From a virus, in the IMG/VR virus record IMGVR_UViG_3300024054_000362, positions 62,001 through 126,000 of that record: DNA of 64,000 nucleotides; one strand, given 5' to 3'. Made by a program: the position numbers and the translations under genes. Positions 5,953 through 46,024 of this stretch are shown piece after piece; the first letter of the stretch is position 1, and each line of letters begins with the position of its first letter. The notes under the pieces were generated by a model. The model did no database searches. It saw only the letters and a program-made list of their open reading frames with translations, and had not been told where the DNA came from.

Positions 5953-6486
5953 TCACGACTTGAAACGTTGTGTGCCGCGAAGGTAGCGCACGGCAGCTTC
6001 AAGAAGTTCAACGTCATCCTTGAAGCTACCGATGCCGACGTTGCATTGATGGCATAGAAGTCCACGGACCTCATTGGTCTTGTGGTCGTGATCGACTGCG
6101 ATCCATTTCACGCGACTGTTTTTAATTCGCGTCTCGATCTGTCGACAGATCGCGCAACGTCCATCGTGAGCGACGTACAACTGATCGTAGTCGGTTTGCG
6201 TGATGCCATAGTTGCGCATGTACTTGTACGCACGCTGGTTGATCTTTTCGCGTTCGTGAACAAGTCCACCACGCTTTCGATATTGCTTTCGGTATTTCGA
6301 AACCTTTTCTCGATGTCCAGGCTTTGCCCACTTTCGCTTCGCGATCGCCTTCACCTTCTTCGGGTTCTTCCTGTACCAATCGCGGAAGTACGCCTTGCAG
6401 CATTCCTTGCACCAGCGTTTCCGGCCGCGTGGATAGAACTCGCCGGGTAGGTTGCACTTCGTGCAGATTTTGGAGATGTCACTCAC
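5953..6486 (-). CDS. recombination endonuclease VII-like HNH nuclease
   Basis: 177 residues. Two N-terminal zinc-binding pairs (C8/C11 and C26/C29) and a Lys/Arg-rich stretch precede the endonuclease VII core: CAIC, then VDHDHKT and RGLLCHQCN, with a YGIT..DYD helix before it. Such proteins resolve DNA junctions in T4-like phages; stand-alone copies in other phages often behave as mobile nucleases. Convergent with the gene ending at 5942. Start GTG 6486. Confidence 0.9.
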   Translation of the reverse strand: MSDISKICTKCNLPGEFYPRGRKRWCKECCKAYFRDWYRKNPKKVKAIAKRKWAKPGHREKVSKYRKQYRKRGGLVHEREKINQRAYKYMRNYGITQTDYDQLYVAHDGRCAICRQIETRIKNSRVKWIAVDHDHKTNEVRGLLCHQCNVGIGSFKDDVELLEAAVRYLRGTQRFKS

Positions 6487-11738: not shown

Positions 11739-13364
11739 ATGACAAGTTTGTCCACGCGTTTTTGGGCACTTACCGAGCAAGTTGATGGATGTTGTGTGTG
11801 GCGTGGCGGACAGTCAAACGGCCATGCGCGGTTTCATCTTCTCGCCGACGAGCGTGCTGTCTTCGAAGGTCGACGCGACATCTCTGCGCAACTTGTCGCA
11901 TGGTATCTGACCCACAACACCACCGAGCGCTTCGTCGATCGCACGTGTGGCAACACGCTCTGCGTCGAGCCAACACATCTTGAAGTGCGAACGATCGCCT
12001 CACGCTTCTGGCGAAACGTCGATCGTAGTGACGCGAACGGTTGTTGGCCGTGGAGAGGCGGCAAACACACCTTCGGATACGGCTCGACGAGTCACGGCTC
12101 GGCACATCGTATGGCCTACGAGCTTACTTACGGCGCAATCCCCGAAGGTGCCGTCGTGCGGCATACCTGCCATCAGCCGACGTGCTGTCGTCCCGATCAT
12201 CTCAAACTCGGTACGCAACGCGACAACGTCCACGACGCCATAGAAGCCGGACGAATGAACTACGCACGCGGTGAACGGATCCCACTCGCGAAATTCACCG
12301 ATGCACAAGCGGCAGCCATTTGTGAAGTCTTCACGGCGATGCGTAAAAACGCTGCTGAACCCAAACGTGAATCCATAGACAAGCTCGCACGCGCGTTGAA
12401 CGTCAATGCACGTACGGTCTGGCGGGTCGTCACCAACCGTGCATATCAAGATGTCGCCGTCGACGGTTCAACCGCGGGTGTTCTTCAGGCACTGCGTAGG
12501 CAAGGCTTCCCATGGCAAACAGTTCTCGACGTCGAAGAAGATCCTATCGCGCGTGTGCGCAATGCCAAGCTTGTCGTCGAGCACGACATCGTTACCAGCG
12601 TTGGAAGCGGCGGTCAGGCAACCTGTCTTCAGGCGCATCCACACCGATTCGCGGCGCGGCACCGCGGGCAACTATCTCTGATTGAAGCGTTCAACGATGA
12701 TGCCACGCTGACGCGCGCCATTCAGTACCAACAACGTCGCGGCGATCCCACTACACCAGCTAGCGTCGTACGCGCGCTTCAAGCGTTGGTGCGTTCACCG
12801 CGCAACTTCCCGCCTGCACTCGCGCGTTGGATCGTCGATGAATATGCACCAGAACATGGAACTGTTCTCGATCCGTGTTCTGGTTACGGTGGTCGCTTGC
12901 TTGGTGCAATAGCAAGCACGAAGAACGTGTGTTACATCGGACGTGACATCAACCCCGACTCCGTCCGCGGCAACCAACAGCTAGCGCAACAGTTGAAGGT
13001 CGACGAACGCGTCACGCAAACGCTCGCGTCCGTCCTCGACGACGATTGGCCCTCGGCGGATTTGATTTTCACGAGCCCGCCGTACTTCAACATCGAGGAC
13101 TACAGCAACGAGCCTGGTACGGAAACGTACGAGAGCTGGCGCGACGGCTTTTTGACGACGCTGATTGCACGCGCGCTCGCGGCTGCACCGCGACTTGTGC
13201 TCAACGTGGCTGCCGTAGGCGAACATGATCTTCCAACTGACGCTGTGCGGATTGCTGAGGTGCTAGGCGGTCGCATTGAGCGGATGTTGACATGGCCGCT
13301 ACGAAGTTTCGGTCGTGGTCCGCGCCGCGAGGAGAAGATCCTTGTCTTTCGATGTACCTTGTGA
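11739..13364 (+). CDS. HNH-HNH-HTH-DNA methyltransferase fusion
   Basis: 541 residues. Two successive HNH/His-Me-finger modules occupy about 1-90 (GCCVWRGG, then CGNTLCVEPTHLEV) and 90-185 (GCWPWRGG, then HTCHQPTCCRPDHLKLGTQRD, split by reading). Next is an HTH (IDKLARALNVNARTVWRV) at about 210-235. The C-terminal half is an amino-methyltransferase: motif I DPCSGYGGRLLGA and motif IV TSPPYFN, typical of N4-cytosine or N6-adenine enzymes. Nuclease and methylase in one chain suggest either a self-protecting restriction-modification enzyme or a homing nuclease fused to a phage methylase. ATG 11739; short GTGAAA repeats lie upstream. Confidence 0.85.
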   Translation: MTSLSTRFWALTEQVDGCCVWRGGQSNGHARFHLLADERAVFEGRRDISAQLVAWYLTHNTTERFVDRTCGNTLCVEPTHLEVRTIASRFWRNVDRSDANGCWPWRGGKHTFGYGSTSHGSAHRMAYELTYGAIPEGAVVRHTCHQPTCCRPDHLKLGTQRDNVHDAIEAGRMNYARGERIPLAKFTDAQAAAICEVFTAMRKNAAEPKRESIDKLARALNVNARTVWRVVTNRAYQDVAVDGSTAGVLQALRRQGFPWQTVLDVEEDPIARVRNAKLVVEHDIVTSVGSGGQATCLQAHPHRFAARHRGQLSLIEAFNDDATLTRAIQYQQRRGDPTTPASVVRALQALVRSPRNFPPALARWIVDEYAPEHGTVLDPCSGYGGRLLGAIASTKNVCYIGRDINPDSVRGNQQLAQQLKVDERVTQTLASVLDDDWPSADLIFTSPPYFNIEDYSNEPGTETYESWRDGFLTTLIARALAAAPRLVLNVAAVGEHDLPTDAVRIAEVLGGRIERMLTWPLRSFGRGPRREEKILVFRCTL

Positions 13365-23205: not shown

Positions 23206-23688
23206 GTGATCACGATGGTCGACAAACGGGTCGGCAGGGCGCTTGTCGCCGCTGTCTACGCGACCGATCGGCACATCTCGATCATGGAAGTCGCGCTGAA
23301 GGCATCACGACAAGGTCTTTCACCCGTCGACGTTGACACACCGAACGGTGTCGATGCGTTGATCGCAATCGCCGTCGCACTGATGGCCACACCGATCCTG
23401 TACCGACCGGTGATCGATCGACCGCGAGGTCTCTGGGCTAGCGCGGTCGACTGGGCACTCAAGATCGTCTCGTCCAAATTTGAAACGCCGGCTCAAGTTG
23501 CGGCTGCACACTGGCGCGCCGAGGTCGACCGTAAGCGCGAGATCAACCGTCGTATAGAGATGCTGAGACGTGCCGCGACCGTTTGCGGTACGGGCTTCGC
23601 CCAGAAGGCCACCGTAGACGCTCAAGCTCATCCAGAAGTTGCTCCGCTTCATGAGGTTCAAGATCAGCTCGGTAACGCGTCAGGATGA
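23206..23688 (+). CDS. RQGL-family small protein, copy 1
   Basis: 160 residues from GTG 23206 (ATG 23215 also possible). Residues about 35-65 carry RQGLSPVDVDTPNGVDALIA, shared with the proteins at 49302 and 52930. The family has a helical N-terminus and a second helix after the motif. The C-terminal 50 residues overlap, antisense, the end of the LAGLIDADG gene. Function unknown; three scattered copies argue for a real conserved role. Confidence 0.65.
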   Translation: MITMVDKRVGRALVAAVYATDRHISIMEVALKASRQGLSPVDVDTPNGVDALIAIAVALMATPILYRPVIDRPRGLWASAVDWALKIVSSKFETPAQVAAAHWRAEVDRKREINRRIEMLRRAATVCGTGFAQKATVDAQAHPEVAPLHEVQDQLGNASG

Positions 23689-24532
23689 GATCGACTTCTG
23701 CGGCCTTTTCGATCACGTATGGCCGAACGTCTTGTAGAAATTTGAAAACGGCCTCGCGCGCGATCAGACGATACATGATTGATGAACGTTCTCGCCCTGT
23801 ACGGGCGACGTACTGAAAGCATCCACCATAGACCTGCCAGATGCGTTTGACGCCGTCTGCAAAGGTTTGATCGAACGCAACACGTACGTGCCACGTACGA
23901 CCGATTTTCTGGACGTCGATGTTACCGTCGCCGTCGAAGTACCCCGCGAAATAGTTCAAGTCCGTTTCATTTGGTTGACGTACGTACTCGAACGTTCGCA
24001 ACTTGTTTCGCGGTCCGACAACGAACGCACCATCGCGCTTCGCTTGTTGATAGTGACAACCACACAAGCCGCGACAAACGGCCACGAAACGACAGCCTTC
24101 GTGACTGCACGAGCCGCGACGTTTCTTCGTCAACGGGACATCAGTTTTCTTGAGACGACGTCTCTTCGCGCGCGCAAGATCTCGCATCAACGCTCGGCCC
24201 ACTGTGCGCGGTAACCGCGATGCGAAACGATCCAAAACCATCTGTGCTTGATCACGCTTCTCACCGAGGAAAGGCAAAACGTCGTTGAGGAAACATGCAA
24301 CGACAGCGTAGCGACGCATTTGCCAGCACGTCTTGTTGCCACTACGACGTAATGTTCCACCGTAGATCTGTTGAATACGTTCGAGGACGATCGGCTTTAC
24401 TTGCTGGAAGGCGACAGTCGCCTGCCAGAACTGCTCGTGATTCGTCGCGACACGAATACAACCTTCGGCGTCGAAGTAGCCCGCAAGATATGCACGGAAG
24501 CTAGACGACGGGGCAGGCAAACCGCGTGTCAT
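23543..24532 (-). CDS. LAGLIDADG homing endonuclease with inserted zinc motif
   Basis: 329 residues. Two LAGLIDADG motifs: YLAGYFDAEG at about 15-24 and YFAGYFDGDG at about 193-203, each with the active-site acidic residue, so one chain forms the two-fold nuclease. Between them a basic region and a zinc-like cluster (CSHEGCRFVAVCRGLCGCHY, about 142-161) similar to clusters in phage HNH proteins. It lies 138 bp from, and divergent to, the capsid-like gene split by a group I intron, so it may mobilise that intron. ATG 24532 is six bases after TAAGAT (leaderless type). Overlaps the 23206 gene tail by 146 bp. Confidence 0.9.
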   Translation of the reverse strand: MTRGLPAPSSSFRAYLAGYFDAEGCIRVATNHEQFWQATVAFQQVKPIVLERIQQIYGGTLRRSGNKTCWQMRRYAVVACFLNDVLPFLGEKRDQAQMVLDRFASRLPRTVGRALMRDLARAKRRRLKKTDVPLTKKRRGSCSHEGCRFVAVCRGLCGCHYQQAKRDGAFVVGPRNKLRTFEYVRQPNETDLNYFAGYFDGDGNIDVQKIGRTWHVRVAFDQTFADGVKRIWQVYGGCFQYVARTGRERSSIMYRLIAREAVFKFLQDVRPYVIEKAAEVDLILTRYRADLEPHEAEQLLDELERLRWPSGRSPYRKRSRHVSASLYDG

Positions 24533-24670: not shown

Positions 24671-24797
24671 GTGGGCCGATTGCCACTACAATTTGCCGGA
24701 AAGGACATCACCTTTCGGATTCCGTACAACATCGCTGCTGAATTGGACGTTGGTCCAAATCTCAACGGTGTTGTCTTCCCCGAAGCGTCCAACTACT
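24671..24797 (+). CDS. capsid-like protein, exon 1 (gene split by group I intron)
   Basis: Encodes the first 42 residues plus one base of the next codon, from GTG 24671 (GAGGAGG ribosome site) to the 5' splice site; without splicing it stops at TGA 24797-24799. After removal of the intron the frame joins exon 2 (25118-25536) to give a 181-residue beta-rich protein. It has motifs such as DITFRIPYNIAAELDVG near the start. Size and strand-rich character recall the small single-jelly-roll capsid proteins of membrane-containing phages, but this is only a resemblance. No enzyme motif. Confidence 0.75.
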
Positions 24798-25117
24798 GAA
24801 CGCCGCCCAAGGTAACTTGGGACGAAAAACCACGTGAACTGCTGGAACCCCCTAAAGCTCGAACGCCACAGCGTGGCCGGCAACGGCGAGCGCGACGGCT
24901 TGAAAAGCGTCGAGATGTACAATGGGCAATCAGCAGCCAAGCGACTCGGCGACGAGTCGAAGGTTCAACGACTAGGGCATGGAGTCTCAGCGGCGCAGGT
25001 CGGTGAGATGGTAGAGCCCCACGAGTGCGTGGCAACCGGTCACACCGGTTGAAGATATAGTCTGAGCTACCGGGAAACCGGTAGGAGCCGCATAAACAGC
25101 GGCTCGCTAACACACCT
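24798..25117 (+). ncRNA. group I self-splicing intron
   Basis: About 320 nt with no ORF. Core elements seen: the J3/4-P4 signature GGGCAATCAGCAGCCAAGC; a stem CGACTCG/CGAGTCG; GGTTCAACGACTA (P7 5' strand GACTA 24970-24974) pairing with TAGTC (25058-25062) in AAGATATAGTC; P9 (25067-25084, GAAA loop); and a further hairpin 25085-25105. P1 can form with U24797 opposite G24811. The sequence CTG occurs at both junctions, so the boundary is ambiguous by up to three bases; in-frame splicing gives an uninterrupted protein. The terminal G normally expected would be G25118. Confidence 0.9.
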
Positions 25118-25536
25118 GCTTCCTCCACAACGTCGACAAACCGTTCGAGATCCACCGCGTCAAGATCGAGCTGACGGCCAAGGGCACCCCAGAAGGCTTC
25201 AGCACGCCGACTGTATTGGAGCCCCAACCGACGACGATGCAGCGTCGCGTGCGGCTCAACATCCTCGACTTCTCGAAGAACGAGAAGCTGACGAAGTCGT
25301 CGACGCTCGTCGGGCTTCTTCTTGCGCGCAACACGGGTGCGTGGGATCTCGAAGAGCCCTACACGATCGTCCGCAGCGAGGGCTTCCAAGTCGGCGTCGA
25401 CACGCTCGACTTTCCCGCCGTCGTCATCCTCGACGAGAACATCGAACCCGAGCGCGTGCTCGTCGAGTTCGTTCGCGTCGAGGTAAATCTTCAGGGCTAT
25501 CTCGACATCGTCGGTCCACCCAGCGAGGTCCGCTAA
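25118..25536 (+). CDS. capsid-like protein, exon 2
   Basis: Encodes about 139 residues (CFLHNVDKPFEIHRVKIEL onward, ending VGPPSEVR). It has no start codon of its own before residue 60 or so and opens just after an in-frame TAA inside the intron, which supports splicing. Alternating hydrophobic strands (RRVRLNILDFS, TLVGLLLARNTGAW, VLVEFVRVEVNLQGYL) suggest a beta barrel. It is followed by two small structural genes. Strong candidate for a capsid or penton-type protein. Confidence 0.75.
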
Positions 25537-30733: not shown

Positions 30734-31396
30734 ATGAGTCTCACCCAAGATACGGACTTCAAGTGCGTCGACAAAGCGGGCAACCCGCTGAACTTCTGCT
30801 TCGGGATCGGTGCAGCAAACCACACGCTGCTTCAGAAGTTGCAACAAGCAGTCAACCGGCTCGCGAACCTCGGTGGATTCCCCGCGTTGACCGTCGACGG
30901 TTTTATCGGACCTGATACGGTGGCTGCCGTTCGAAAGGTGCTCTTCATCGGCCCCGTAGGCAGCCTTCCTTGGACCAAGGAGACAATCTCCAACAACGCG
31001 TCTGAAGTCATCGACGGGTTGAACAGTATCGCCGCCGATCTTCAAACCAGGGGCGACGTACTAGCGCCCGAGGGTACGCCCGTCGAGCCGACCATCCAGA
31101 CGATGGCGACGTCGACCGGTATTCCTCAAGAAAGCGCAGCTGACATCATCGCCGCCGCACTCGGACCGGCACCGAGTAACCAAAAAACCTTCAAGCTCCT
31201 GCCGTGGATCTTGGGTGGCTTGGCGGTCGTCGCCGCTGTCGGCGTCGGCGGCTACTTCTACCACCGCCACAAGGCGCGTCAGCAACTCGGATGGGGCGAC
31301 GACGATGATTTCGGAGACGATGATCTCGGAAACGATGATCTCGGCGACGACGATCTCGGCGACAACGACTTCGACGGCGGTAGCGAGGAGCTATAG
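30734..31396 (+). CDS. PG-binding-like membrane protein, tandem copy 1
   Basis: 220 residues. N-terminus has DFKC and FCFGIG, then a peptidoglycan-binding-like helix bundle at about 30-70 (LQKLQQAVNRLANLGGF, LTVDGFIGPDTVAAVRK). A helical spacer, one membrane segment (KLLPWILGGLAVVAAVGVGG inside, about 157-180) and an acidic tail of repeated DDDLG units follow. Copies 2 and 3 come directly after. Family knowledge: such domains bind cell-wall peptidoglycan. Inferred role: virion membrane protein contacting the wall during DNA entry. Confidence 0.8.
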   Translation: MSLTQDTDFKCVDKAGNPLNFCFGIGAANHTLLQKLQQAVNRLANLGGFPALTVDGFIGPDTVAAVRKVLFIGPVGSLPWTKETISNNASEVIDGLNSIAADLQTRGDVLAPEGTPVEPTIQTMATSTGIPQESAADIIAAALGPAPSNQKTFKLLPWILGGLAVVAAVGVGGYFYHRHKARQQLGWGDDDDFGDDDLGNDDLGDDDLGDNDFDGGSEEL

Positions 31397-31398
31397 CC

Positions 31399-32037
31399 GT
31401 GAGTCTTCTCCCCGAGCAGTTCCCACTTCCCGACAGTCTTGTCCCTGGAACAGACTTCAAGTGCGCCGATCGTGCCGGGACGCCGCTGAACTTCTGTTTC
31501 GGAATCGGCGCCGGCAACCACGCGACCCTTCAACTCCTACAGCAGGCCATCAACCAGTTCTCGGTTCTGAAGGGCTTCGCACAGCTCACCGTCGACGGTT
31601 TTGTTGGTACCAACACCGTCAACGCCGTACAAGCCATCCTCCCGATCGATCCGCCATGGACCAAGGAGCAAGTCACGGAACGTGCAACGGGCCTGTTGAT
31701 ACAGATCGACAACGCTGCAAGGCAGCTAGAACAACAAGGACACACGCTCGCATCAATCGGCGAGCCCGTCCCTCCAGCACAGAGCGTGGCGTCGACCGGG
31801 GTTCCGTCGTCGACCGGCAGTGAAATCGTCGCTGCGACGACAGCACCGACAACCGCAGCAGGCATCGCTGCCGTTGTCCCAAAGTCGAAGTTGCTACCGT
31901 GGATCCTCGGCGGTCTCGCTGTTGTCGCCGCGGTCGGCGTCGGCGGTTTCTTCTATCATCGAAACAGACTCCTGAAACAGGCGGGATGGGGTGACTACGA
32001 CGACGCTGACGACCTCGGCGCCGACGAGGAGGACTGA
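31399..32037 (+). CDS. PG-binding-like membrane protein, tandem copy 2
   Basis: 212 residues from GTG 31399, 2 nt after copy 1. Same order: DFKCADRAGTPLNFCFGIG, helix bundle with LTVDGFVGTNTVNAVQA, a spacer, the nearly identical membrane segment KLLPWILGGLAVVAAVGVGG, then an acidic tail (DDADDLGADEED). Closest to copy 1; clearly a tandem duplication. Confidence 0.8.
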   Translation: MSLLPEQFPLPDSLVPGTDFKCADRAGTPLNFCFGIGAGNHATLQLLQQAINQFSVLKGFAQLTVDGFVGTNTVNAVQAILPIDPPWTKEQVTERATGLLIQIDNAARQLEQQGHTLASIGEPVPPAQSVASTGVPSSTGSEIVAATTAPTTAAGIAAVVPKSKLLPWILGGLAVVAAVGVGGFFYHRNRLLKQAGWGDYDDADDLGADEED

Positions 32038-32040
32038 TCC

Positions 32041-32775
32041 ATGTGGGGTGCTGCGCTCACACAAAACGTCGACTTCAACTGCAACAAGGACATCTGCTTT
32101 GGAATCGGTCCCGTCCACGACAAGTACAAGCTGTTTCAGCAAACGCTGAACCGCTTCGCACCGCTCGGGAAGGGTTTCAAGCCGCTCGATGTCGACGGAT
32201 TCATCGGAGATCTAACCGTCGCTGCCGCAAACGCGGCTGCTGAAGTTGCAACACTACCGTCACCAGGTCTCACGCACGAAGCCGTCGCAGCCAGCGTCGA
32301 CGACTTCACGTCGCAGCTGTCGAGTATCATCGACATGCTTGTCACGGCAGGCGTGATCGCGCCGATCAACGATGCCGAACGCGCCAAGATCGCGGCCACC
32401 GATACCGACCTCACCAAGCCACCGCCGGCTGCTGCAACCGCCATCGTCGGCACATCGACGCCGTCGCCTGAGATCGACGGTGTGATCCAACAGACCGTTG
32501 CCGCGTGTCGTGCCAGTCGTTCGAGTCCTGCGTGTACCCGCGCCAAGACGATGTGCAAGAGCATCCGCGGGACGCCCCAGGCTTCGCTCGCCGAAGTCAA
32601 AGAAATCTGCGACTCGACTTCGACACCGCTCTGGGTGTTCCTGCTCGCAGGAGGCCTCGGCGTAGGCGCCATCATCGGAATCGGCGTCCTCCACGCCCGT
32701 CGACGTCGCGCCGCCGAAGCCGTGGCACTCGGGAACGATGCACGTCCGGCCCGTCGGTATAAGCGCGTTCGTTGA
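32041..32775 (+). CDS. PG-binding-like membrane protein, tandem copy 3
   Basis: 244 residues. DFNC, ICFGIG and the bundle with LDVDGFIGDLTVAAANA mark it as the diverged third copy. It has an extra Cys-containing helical segment (about 155-195) before the membrane segment (about 200-220), and a basic instead of acidic tail (RRRRAAEAV, ARRYKRVR). The opposite tail charge suggests a different partner on the inner side. Confidence 0.8.
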   Translation: MWGAALTQNVDFNCNKDICFGIGPVHDKYKLFQQTLNRFAPLGKGFKPLDVDGFIGDLTVAAANAAAEVATLPSPGLTHEAVAASVDDFTSQLSSIIDMLVTAGVIAPINDAERAKIAATDTDLTKPPPAAATAIVGTSTPSPEIDGVIQQTVAACRASRSSPACTRAKTMCKSIRGTPQASLAEVKEICDSTSTPLWVFLLAGGLGVGAIIGIGVLHARRRRAAEAVALGNDARPARRYKRVR

Positions 32776-43592: not shown

Positions 43593-44687
43593 ATGCCACT
43601 GTCGTTCGAGAAGACCGAGCAAGCACTGCTCGCTTGCGTCAAGACCCAGATCACGCCCGTCGTCGTCGGACCGCCCGGAATCGGCAAGACGGCGATCGTC
43701 CGCGCCGTCGGCGTCAAGGCCAAGCTGCCGGTGCACGAGCTGTTGGCATCGAACTGCGACGCCGTCGACATCGCCGGTTTCCCGTTCGTCGATGCCAAGA
43801 CCGCAACGCTGAAGCGCGCACTGCTGCCGGAGATCGAAGCCTGTGTCAAGGCGCCCGGCATCCTGTTCCTGGACGAACTGACGGCTGTCCCGCCGAGCGT
43901 ACAGGGGCCGCTGATGCGGCTGCTCCTCGAACGATACGCAGGTGGGACTCGTCTGCACCCCGAGAGTTGCGTCGTCGGCGCCGCCAACCGTCCCGAAGAG
44001 TGTCCCGGCGGCATCGAATTGTCGGCAGCCAGCATCAACCGCGTGATCAAGATGGTCGATTTCATGCCGACCCTCGACGAGATCCGTGGCTACTTCGAGC
44101 GTGTCGGCGATGCTGGTACGCGTCTCCACGAGGAGATGGTCGATTTCGCAGCCACGCTCGCGGTCAACGCAGACCTTCTCGACATGTCGCCACCACGCGC
44201 GTCGATCGATGCCGGTGCGCCGTTCGCGTCGCCGCGCGCGTGGGATCGAGGACTCACGGTGTACGCCAGCTACTGCGACGCGGCCAAGGTTGGATTCAAC
44301 CTCGGTCAGAACGAGGATGACGTCGGCTTCGCGCTGCTCTCCGGCGCTGTGGGGGAGACCAAGGCGGTCGCGTTCTTCGCGATCCGCAAGATGCGCAAGC
44401 ATCTACCGAGCATCGACGACATCCTCAACGATCCTGTGAAGGCCAAGGTCCCAGAGAAGAAGGACCAGCAGATCGCAGCCGTTGGGCTCATCGCGCGCGT
44501 CGCCGAGAAGGATCTCTGGGCGTCATGGATCTACGTCGAGCGCCTCCTGCCCGAGATCAGTGCCGCGTGCGCGCGTGTCCTCATGACCAAGAACGACCCC
44601 GGCAAGTCGAAGTGGCTCATGCAAGGCAAGAACGCGCAGGTCAACGGCCTCGCTGCGATTCATCGTAGCATGAACACCAAGCCGTAA
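43593..44687 (+). CDS. MoxR-family AAA+ ATPase
   Basis: 364 residues. Walker A VVGPPGIGKT at about 24-33, Walker B GILFLDELT near 90, sensor-like AANRPEE near 133. The C-terminal 120 residues are helical. MoxR ATPases act as chaperones that insert metals or remodel VWA partners; the next gene encodes exactly such a partner. Found as a pair in many bacteria but rarely in viruses. Confidence 0.9.
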   Translation: MPLSFEKTEQALLACVKTQITPVVVGPPGIGKTAIVRAVGVKAKLPVHELLASNCDAVDIAGFPFVDAKTATLKRALLPEIEACVKAPGILFLDELTAVPPSVQGPLMRLLLERYAGGTRLHPESCVVGAANRPEECPGGIELSAASINRVIKMVDFMPTLDEIRGYFERVGDAGTRLHEEMVDFAATLAVNADLLDMSPPRASIDAGAPFASPRAWDRGLTVYASYCDAAKVGFNLGQNEDDVGFALLSGAVGETKAVAFFAIRKMRKHLPSIDDILNDPVKAKVPEKKDQQIAAVGLIARVAEKDLWASWIYVERLLPEISAACARVLMTKNDPGKSKWLMQGKNAQVNGLAAIHRSMNTKP

Positions 44688-44710
44688 CTCAGCTCGTAGG
44701 AGCGCCGTCC

Positions 44711-46024
44711 ATGTCCAATCGCAACAAGAGCCCCCATCAGGTCAACACGTCGACGGAAAAGCCGCTGCGGCCTCGCGTGGTTGATCCGGCTGTTGCGGCG
44801 GCACTGATTTCACGGTGCAAGGCCAACGCACTGTATTTGGGATGGAAACAGACGCCGTTTTTCCTGCCCGCGGTAGGACGCGTCGAGTTCCGTCCCACAA
44901 CAGAAATCCCGACCGCGGCTGTTGATTTGCGTGGACGGATCTACGTCAACGTCGATTTCGCTGCCAAGCTGAAGGACGCTGAGCTGCAGTTCGTGATCGC
45001 ACACGAGCTGATGCACCTCCTGTTGCTCCACCACGATCGTCGTGGACACCGCGATCGACTGAAGTGGAACATCGCCACCGACCTGATCATCAACCGTACG
45101 CTCAAGGACGTTGCTGACGCTGTCGGCGCGGGCGCGTTCGAGATGCCCAAGGTGGGACTGATCGCCGACGAGAGCCAGGCTGGCTTGACTGCAGAACAGC
45201 TCTACGCCGACATCCCAGATCCGCCGGCCGAGATGCGCGCAGCCTTTGAGGCTGGGACAATCCCCGTCGGCCAAGGGTGTGGTGTCGACGACGGCACCGA
45301 TCCCAACGGCAACCCGGATCCCGATGATCCGGACGGTCAAGAAGCCAAGACGCCCGACCAGCTCAAGCGTGATTGGCAGGAGTGTGCGGTCCAGTGTCAG
45401 ATGCAAGGCCGTCAAGCTGGTGATGTCGCAGGCAACATGCTCGCCGACATTCTCGACGTTCCCGATCCTCTCGTGCGCTGGTCCGAGGTTCTGCGTGGTG
45501 CGCTTCTCCGTGCCATCGCCGAAGCCGGCCGCGACGATGTGTCGTGGCGACGCCGCTCGCGACGTAGCACGGTGGAGTTCATCCTACCTGGCGGCGTCAA
45601 CTACCGCTGCAAGGCAGCCGTCGTGATCGATGCGTCCGGATCGGTCGACGATGAAGCTCTTGCACGCTGTACCGCCGAGACCACGGCCATCGTCAACCAC
45701 TGTGGCGTCGCAGTCTTTCTCGTCGTTCACGATCACGCCGTACAGTCTGCTACCTGGATCCGTCCTGGCGTCAAGTCCAAGGTCCATCAGGACATCAAGA
45801 AGGAAATGAAAGGCCGTGGCGGTACCAGCTTCGACGAGGCGTATGATCGTGTTCAAGAAGAAGGCGAAAAGTTCAACGTCATGGTCCACCTGACTGATGC
45901 AGAAATCGGCGGTGTGTGGCCTCCACGTCCATCGTCGGTACGGCGCCTCGTCGTCGCACTGGTGGGTTCGGCTTGCAAAGACAACTGTCCGCCGGATGCA
46001 CGCGTCATCGAAGTCGAAATCTGA
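44711..46024 (+). CDS. VWA-like metallopeptidase (DUF2201 type)
   Basis: 437 residues. N-terminal zinc-peptidase-like domain with HELMH at 98-102 and WNIATDLIIN after it, an acidic Asp/Pro linker (about 195-215), and a C-terminal VWA-like domain with VVIDASGSVDD near 310 and GGTSFDEAYD near 375. This is the DUF2201 architecture (putative metallopeptidase plus VWA-like). 23 nt after the MoxR ATPase, so they form a two-gene module. Substrate unknown. Confidence 0.9.
   Translation: MSNRNKSPHQVNTSTEKPLRPRVVDPAVAAALISRCKANALYLGWKQTPFFLPAVGRVEFRPTTEIPTAAVDLRGRIYVNVDFAAKLKDAELQFVIAHELMHLLLLHHDRRGHRDRLKWNIATDLIINRTLKDVADAVGAGAFEMPKVGLIADESQAGLTAEQLYADIPDPPAEMRAAFEAGTIPVGQGCGVDDGTDPNGNPDPDDPDGQEAKTPDQLKRDWQECAVQCQMQGRQAGDVAGNMLADILDVPDPLVRWSEVLRGALLRAIAEAGRDDVSWRRRSRRSTVEFILPGGVNYRCKAAVVIDASGSVDDEALARCTAETTAIVNHCGVAVFLVVHDHAVQSATWIRPGVKSKVHQDIKKEMKGRGGTSFDEAYDRVQEEGEKFNVMVHLTDAEIGGVWPPRPSSVRRLVVALVGSACKDNCPPDARVIEVEI

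Follow-up and report, generated by a model that had tools for sequence, protein, structure and literature searches.

An Intron-Interrupted Gene in a Large Viral Record

The window analysed here, a 64-kb stretch of DNA, spans positions 62001-126000 of an IMG/VR virus record (G000) that is 221 kb long, and coordinates below are those of the window unless stated otherwise. On its plus strand, a GTG start codon at 24671, preceded by a GAGGAGG site, opens a reading frame that is interrupted by a TGA codon at 24797, and a second open frame, which has no start of its own near 25111, closes with TAA at 25534-25536. The initial annotation had described a gene stopping at TGA 24797 and a startless frame resuming at about 25111, both of which we confirmed, and had proposed that a group I intron separates the two. 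A covariance search with the Rfam Intron_gpI model (RF00028) bore this out: the match scored 71.8 bits (E = 3e-16; gathering cut-off, 50 bits) and was the only RNA family match at gathering level in the 64-kb window, and all core helices form. A viral gene is therefore confirmed to be interrupted by a genuine group I intron. As judged from the Rfam match, intronless relatives of the host gene and sibling introns, it occupies 24790..25118 on the plus strand (329 nt), and no other group I intron was found in the 221-kb record.

Downstream of P1, which is discussed below, the P2 hairpin (24806..24821, CCCAAG-GUAA-CUUGGG) carries a GNRA loop. The helices P3 (24830-24836 with 25026-25032), P4 (24839-24844 with 24931-24936, with P5 in between), P7, which binds the guanosine (24970-24974 with 25058-25062), P8 (25034-25050, AACCGGU-CAC-ACCGGUU), P9 (25067-25084, GAAA loop) and P9.1 (25085-25105) were placed by Rfam and by a helix check in which full pairing was possible in all six and in P7.1/P7.2; covariation added support for P4 and P7. 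Directly after P8 lies J8/7 (25051-25057, GAAGAUA). The P7.1/P7.2 insertion (24975-25019, GGGC/GCCC and UCUCA/UGAGA) lies between P7 and P3, and by this feature the intron is of the subgroup IA type. The GACTA/TAGTC pairing of P7, AAGATATAGTC and the GAAA-capped P9 had already been pointed out in the initial annotation and are present as claimed; GACUA/UAGUC in P7 and AAGAUAUAGUC in J8/7 are identical across 13 introns. The GUAA loop of P2 with a CC:GG step in P8, and the GAAA loop of P9 near P5, presumably fit the usual tertiary contacts. No convincing P10 was found, and the intron contains no ORF of note. Its intact core suggests that it would be active in splicing. Wider alignment-based searches yielded no second intron-bearing copy; in named phage records, the intron core was matched in part only, and the 3′ exon product had no relative.

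Intronless Relatives Place the Splice Junction

Where does the intron begin and end? A search with the 3′ exon product retrieved five viral contigs, and a later search added one Gemmatimonadota chromosome. All six relatives lack the intron and read PEASFLHN, PDATFLHN or PDATYTHN across the junction with no extra residues, a Ser or Thr immediately preceding F/Y-[LT]-HNVDKPF in every case. The DNA alignments to two of them (L002 and L004) stop exactly at 24789 and restart at 25120, and the base left over between the alignment blocks, 25119, is the third base of a split codon. Because the six relatives show this reading without extra residues, the junction is best read as GCG TC^C TTC, in which TC (24788-24789) joined to C25119 would encode Ser, as in the closest relatives. 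With boundaries taken from the relatives, the intron ends in G25118, the omega-G. No other G lies downstream of the last in-frame stop (TAA, 25108-25110) and ahead of the conserved 3′ exon, and the 5′ exon must therefore end at C24789. The relatives' reading, together with an intron ending in G, thus leaves 24790-25118 as the sole solution; it is homology that shows where these predicted boundaries lie.

The 5′ exon (24671..24789, plus strand) would accordingly run from the GTG start through 39 codons to the TC of the split Ser codon, ending where the alignments with L002 and L004 end, and the 3′ exon (25119..25536, plus strand) would supply the C of that codon, followed by FLHNVDKPFEIHR... 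and ending in TAA. The predicted spliced product, with 24790-25118 taken out, is 178 aa long and aligns without gaps to its three closest relatives.

A different junction had been proposed in the initial annotation, with the 5′ splice site at U24797 (or G24798), a P1 formed by UACU/GGUA with a U24797·G24811 pair, and a product of 181 residues that includes Asn-Tyr-Cys. Both U24797 and G24811 exist, and the frame stays open if the CTG shared by the two junctions is read as ambiguous. However, this solution requires that the intron lack a terminal G or that the exon end in one, and the added Asn-Tyr-Cys is seen in none of the six relatives. It also destroys P2, which is paired in 13 of 13 introns and whose 5′ strand ends with G24811, and the UACU/GGUA helix has an energy of -0.2 and a pairing probability of about 0 in the folded precursor. 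We regard this junction as extremely improbable: with the boundaries set by the relatives, position 24790 is the first base of the intron and lies seven bases upstream of the TGA, the protein is 178 residues long, and the shared CTG is a coincidence.

Sibling Introns and the P1 Helix

Using the pattern GUAA-P2, GAAAAAC and P3, we found 26 stretches in IMG/VR that contain sibling introns, and in these P1 lies directly before P2, as in the window intron. The splice pair is U/G in the distinct siblings that were checked by hand (e.g., GGCGU^U...AGCGCC and GUGAU^U...GUCAC). For one sibling (L064; PHROG 'major head protein'), the exons match positions 3-106 and 108-291 of the SU10 major capsid protein, and its junction is therefore exact to one split codon. 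In a MAFFT alignment with 12 sibling introns, C24789 falls in their splice-site U column; GCGUC^CAAC of the window is aligned with GGCGU^UAAC, and the intron starts CAACU and UAACU correspond. P2 shows 100 % pairing in 13 of 13 introns, its covariation was reached by 0 of 500 shuffles, and five of its six pairs are altered on both sides relative to the sibling introns, although the 12 siblings share one insertion site and are therefore one lineage, so that the five altered pairs of P2 all repeat a single compensatory comparison. The layout of the siblings and their alignment agree with the relatives in suggesting a 5′ exon with a terminal C that faces an A.

P1 (24785..24803) is predicted to pair 24785-24791 with 24797-24803, as indicated by pair probabilities, the MFE structure and the helix check. 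Exon GCGU is paired with ACGC, C24789 faces A24799 right at the splice site, and all other pairs are Watson-Crick. An unconstrained fold of 24775-24826 gave two hairpins, P1 and P2, and in the ensemble of the 24700-25118 precursor the P1 pairs have probabilities of 0.80-0.99 and P2 of 1.0. The chance of an equally good P1 in 16 random bases is 0.2-0.8 %, falling to 0.07-0.28 % if an A must stand opposite the C. Folding and the sibling alignment thus support a P1 with C·A at the splice site as the probable geometry.

The Rfam alignment sets P1 elsewhere, at the upstream U24769 (CGGU^GUU/AACGCCG), from which splicing would give a frameshifted short product by a regulatory or unproductive route. 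That helix has seven continuous pairs including a classic U/G (U24769/G24802), and in isolation it is more stable than the P1 with C·A (-17.7 versus -14.6 kcal/mol). However, its probability in the precursor ensemble is about 0, splicing there would lose GVVFPEAS and shift the frame, and homology to intronless DNA continues up to 24789. Such a route is very improbable; P1 was misplaced by the initial annotation and by the Rfam alignment because a U is expected at the exon end.

The same boundaries could also be served by pairing the splice-site C with a G, either as C24789-G24798 with A24799 bulged or as C24789-G24821. Both G residues are within reach, and for the Tetrahymena ribozyme Pyle et al. 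(1994) reportedly found that a splice-site G-C lowers its binding, reactivity and fidelity without abolishing activity. However, the bulge in the first pairing costs stacking, and the second uses up the closing pair of P2 and requires a guide strand downstream of P2, an arrangement seen in none of the siblings. We consider a C-G pair rather unlikely and retain the C·A pair as the preferred reading.

A P1 with GGACG as guide was rejected on the sibling layout. An automated survey of P1 in 73 introns, comparing U·G with C·A, was too unspecific, some of its 'C·A-only' cases (L028, for example) having an ordinary U·G when examined by hand.

A Probable C·A Pair at a Natural 5′ Splice Site

The U·G pair at the 5′ splice site occurs in nearly all group I introns and is among their most conserved features, and laboratory work has argued that wobble geometry, not base identity, is read there. 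In the window intron this U/G wobble is lacking, and C24789 faces A24799. To our knowledge, the swap of C·A for U·G is known only from engineered ribozymes: Doudna, Cormack and Szostak (1989) are said to have found that engineered introns accept C/A for U/G at the 5′ splice site. Those ribozymes were laboratory mutants, whereas the C/A described here is a natural sequence, known from one metagenomic record. A literature search over open papers found no published case of a natural C·A splice site. The missing U/G does not disqualify the intron from group I, because an exception to the U has been published: the Group B IStron BcISt1 contains a group I intron proven to splice after a non-U base (PMC4227781). 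BcISt1 splices after G and has its U/G pair displaced by one position, whereas the window intron would splice after C opposite A, in register.

How might such a pair have arisen? The exon base occupies the second position of the split codon, for which the relatives use the Ser/Thr codons TCG, AGC and ACG, and a U there would turn it into a codon for Phe, Leu, Ile or Met. The guide base in the intron may have changed from G to A with the wobble geometry kept, likely because the exon base sits in a conserved Ser/Thr codon that does not tolerate U. We infer that the C/A pair functions at the splice site. The wobble C24789/A24799 in P1 would mark the 5′ splice site in place of U/G, in the first of two transesterifications guanosine held in P7 would attack after C24789, and in the second the freed 5′ exon would attack after omega-G 25118, restoring ...PEAS-FLHNV.... 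That a natural intron picks its 5′ splice site by a C/A wobble, through a compensatory G-to-A change in the guide where a conserved Ser/Thr bars U, has in our judgement slightly better than even chances of being correct.

Alternatively, the intron might have decayed and ceased to splice, leaving a gene that is broken or makes two proteins, and the C in place of U could be a mark of such decay. However, the core is complete with no helix broken, the C is the ancestral exon base and so represents no decay change, and the conserved reading is intact in both exons; decay is decidedly unlikely. If the C·A reading is true, this natural intron would provide an evolutionary test of the wobble-geometry reading, in which the intron has accommodated a protein-coding constraint on an exon base, and it would be a warning for annotation that demands a U at the exon end.

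A Neighbouring LAGLIDADG Gene and Probable Intron Mobility

On the minus strand, 257 bp from the 5′ splice site and divergent from the host gene, lies a free-standing LAGLIDADG homing endonuclease gene (HEG; 23543..24532, 329 aa, two motifs; Pfam LAGLIDADG_3, 3e-10), whose product has I-CreI/I-CvuI relatives among PDB sequences. At this position the relatives carry a different, unrelated gene (about 114-134 aa) that has no match anywhere in the whole record. The LAGLIDADG protein also has an unusual layout, its two LAGLIDADG halves being separated by a Cys-rich segment (CSHEGCRFVAVCRGLCGCHYQ) that resembles a zinc finger.

The intron is absent from records G001-G005 and G006, and LAGLIDADG_3 is absent from G001-G003, the three closest relatives, records that may be fragments. 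An ORF-less intron and a free-standing HEG thus adjoin the same gene, as in collaborative homing. Because the adjoining LAGLIDADG gene is missing in close relatives, this arrangement suggests that the intron and the putative endonuclease form a collaborative homing pair, in which the LAGLIDADG protein would probably provide mobility by cutting intronless alleles. We assign a probability of roughly 0.7 to the combined explanation, namely a 329-nt IA intron (24790-25118) in a gene for 178 residues, with a 5′ splice site marked by C24789/A24799 and mobility aided by the LAGLIDADG protein.

Co-conversion of the 5′ exon with the HEG was also considered. The 3′ exon has a higher synonymous identity to L003 and L004 than the 5′ exon has, but the same difference is seen between L002 and L003 and between L003 and L004, pairs without the intron, and the idea was set aside. 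GC3 is low in the 5′ exon (21/39) and in the HEG (185/329).

Comparison with Known Systems

The closest likenesses are with the introns in SU10-type capsid genes (L064, L143 and others), which have about 320 nt, no ORF and the order P1-P2(GUAA)-GAAAAAC-P3, and which resemble the window intron in P4, P7, J8/7 and the omega-G end. They differ in their host gene and in having U/G in P1, whereas the window intron has C/A, a longer P8 and a different P7.1/P7.2. In Cluster J mycobacteriophages, introns in capsid and tail genes, hence in virion genes, likewise had their boundaries set via intronless relatives, and splicing was proven by RT-PCR (PMC3706429). There, however, the LittleE intron holds its endonuclease inside, and the BAKA exon ends in the usual U. 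Collaborative homing is known from cyanophage S-PM2, T3/T7-like phages and ICP1 (PMC3984707, PMC10448857), where, as in the window, a free-standing endonuclease gene lies beside the same host gene as an ORF-less intron. The enzyme families differ: F-CphI of S-PM2 has an Endo VII motif and that of ICP1 is T5orf172, whereas the putative cutter here is of the LAGLIDADG family.

Except for the C·A pair, this is a mobile intron of the ordinary kind. Virion genes split by group I introns are well known and are common among the siblings; what stands out here is the probable natural C·A pair.

Nature of the Element and Other Observations

The host gene had been called capsid-like, and introns in virion genes of non-tailed-looking elements unusual. 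Searches with the host protein in Pfam, PHROGs and PDB sequences found nothing similar, and what speaks for the first description is its conservation in related elements. The second does not hold, given that siblings split SU10-type major capsid genes and that mycobacteriophage capsid and tail introns have been published (PMC3706429). As for the non-tailed appearance, it fits the lack of terminase matches in the 221-kb record and in a 196-kb relative (G001) without being established by it. Both carry a DUF87/HerA-type ATPase, and they would fit either an integrative element or a non-tailed virus of very large size. The same gene cluster occurs in a bacterial chromosome (L133; CP070815.1, a Gemmatimonadota MAG), pointing to Gemmatimonadota as the likely host phylum and to integration.

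Several other genes deserve mention. Another free-standing nuclease, a recombination endonuclease VII (Pfam Endonuclease_7, 1e-22), is encoded at 5953-6486 (minus strand), and at 11739-13364 (plus strand) an HNH endonuclease domain lies in frame with a partial N6/N4 DNA methyltransferase match, reflecting an HNH invasion of the methylase or a fusion to it. A second LAGLIDADG match (locus L158; G000:C1:199258-199515, minus strand) falls within a 768-aa open frame and is possibly an intein. Three tandem paralogues at 30734-32775 (plus strand) have common DF.C....FCFGIG-like motifs near the N terminus, and at 43593-46024 (plus strand) a MoxR-like ATPase adjoins a DUF2201 metallopeptidase/VWA protein.
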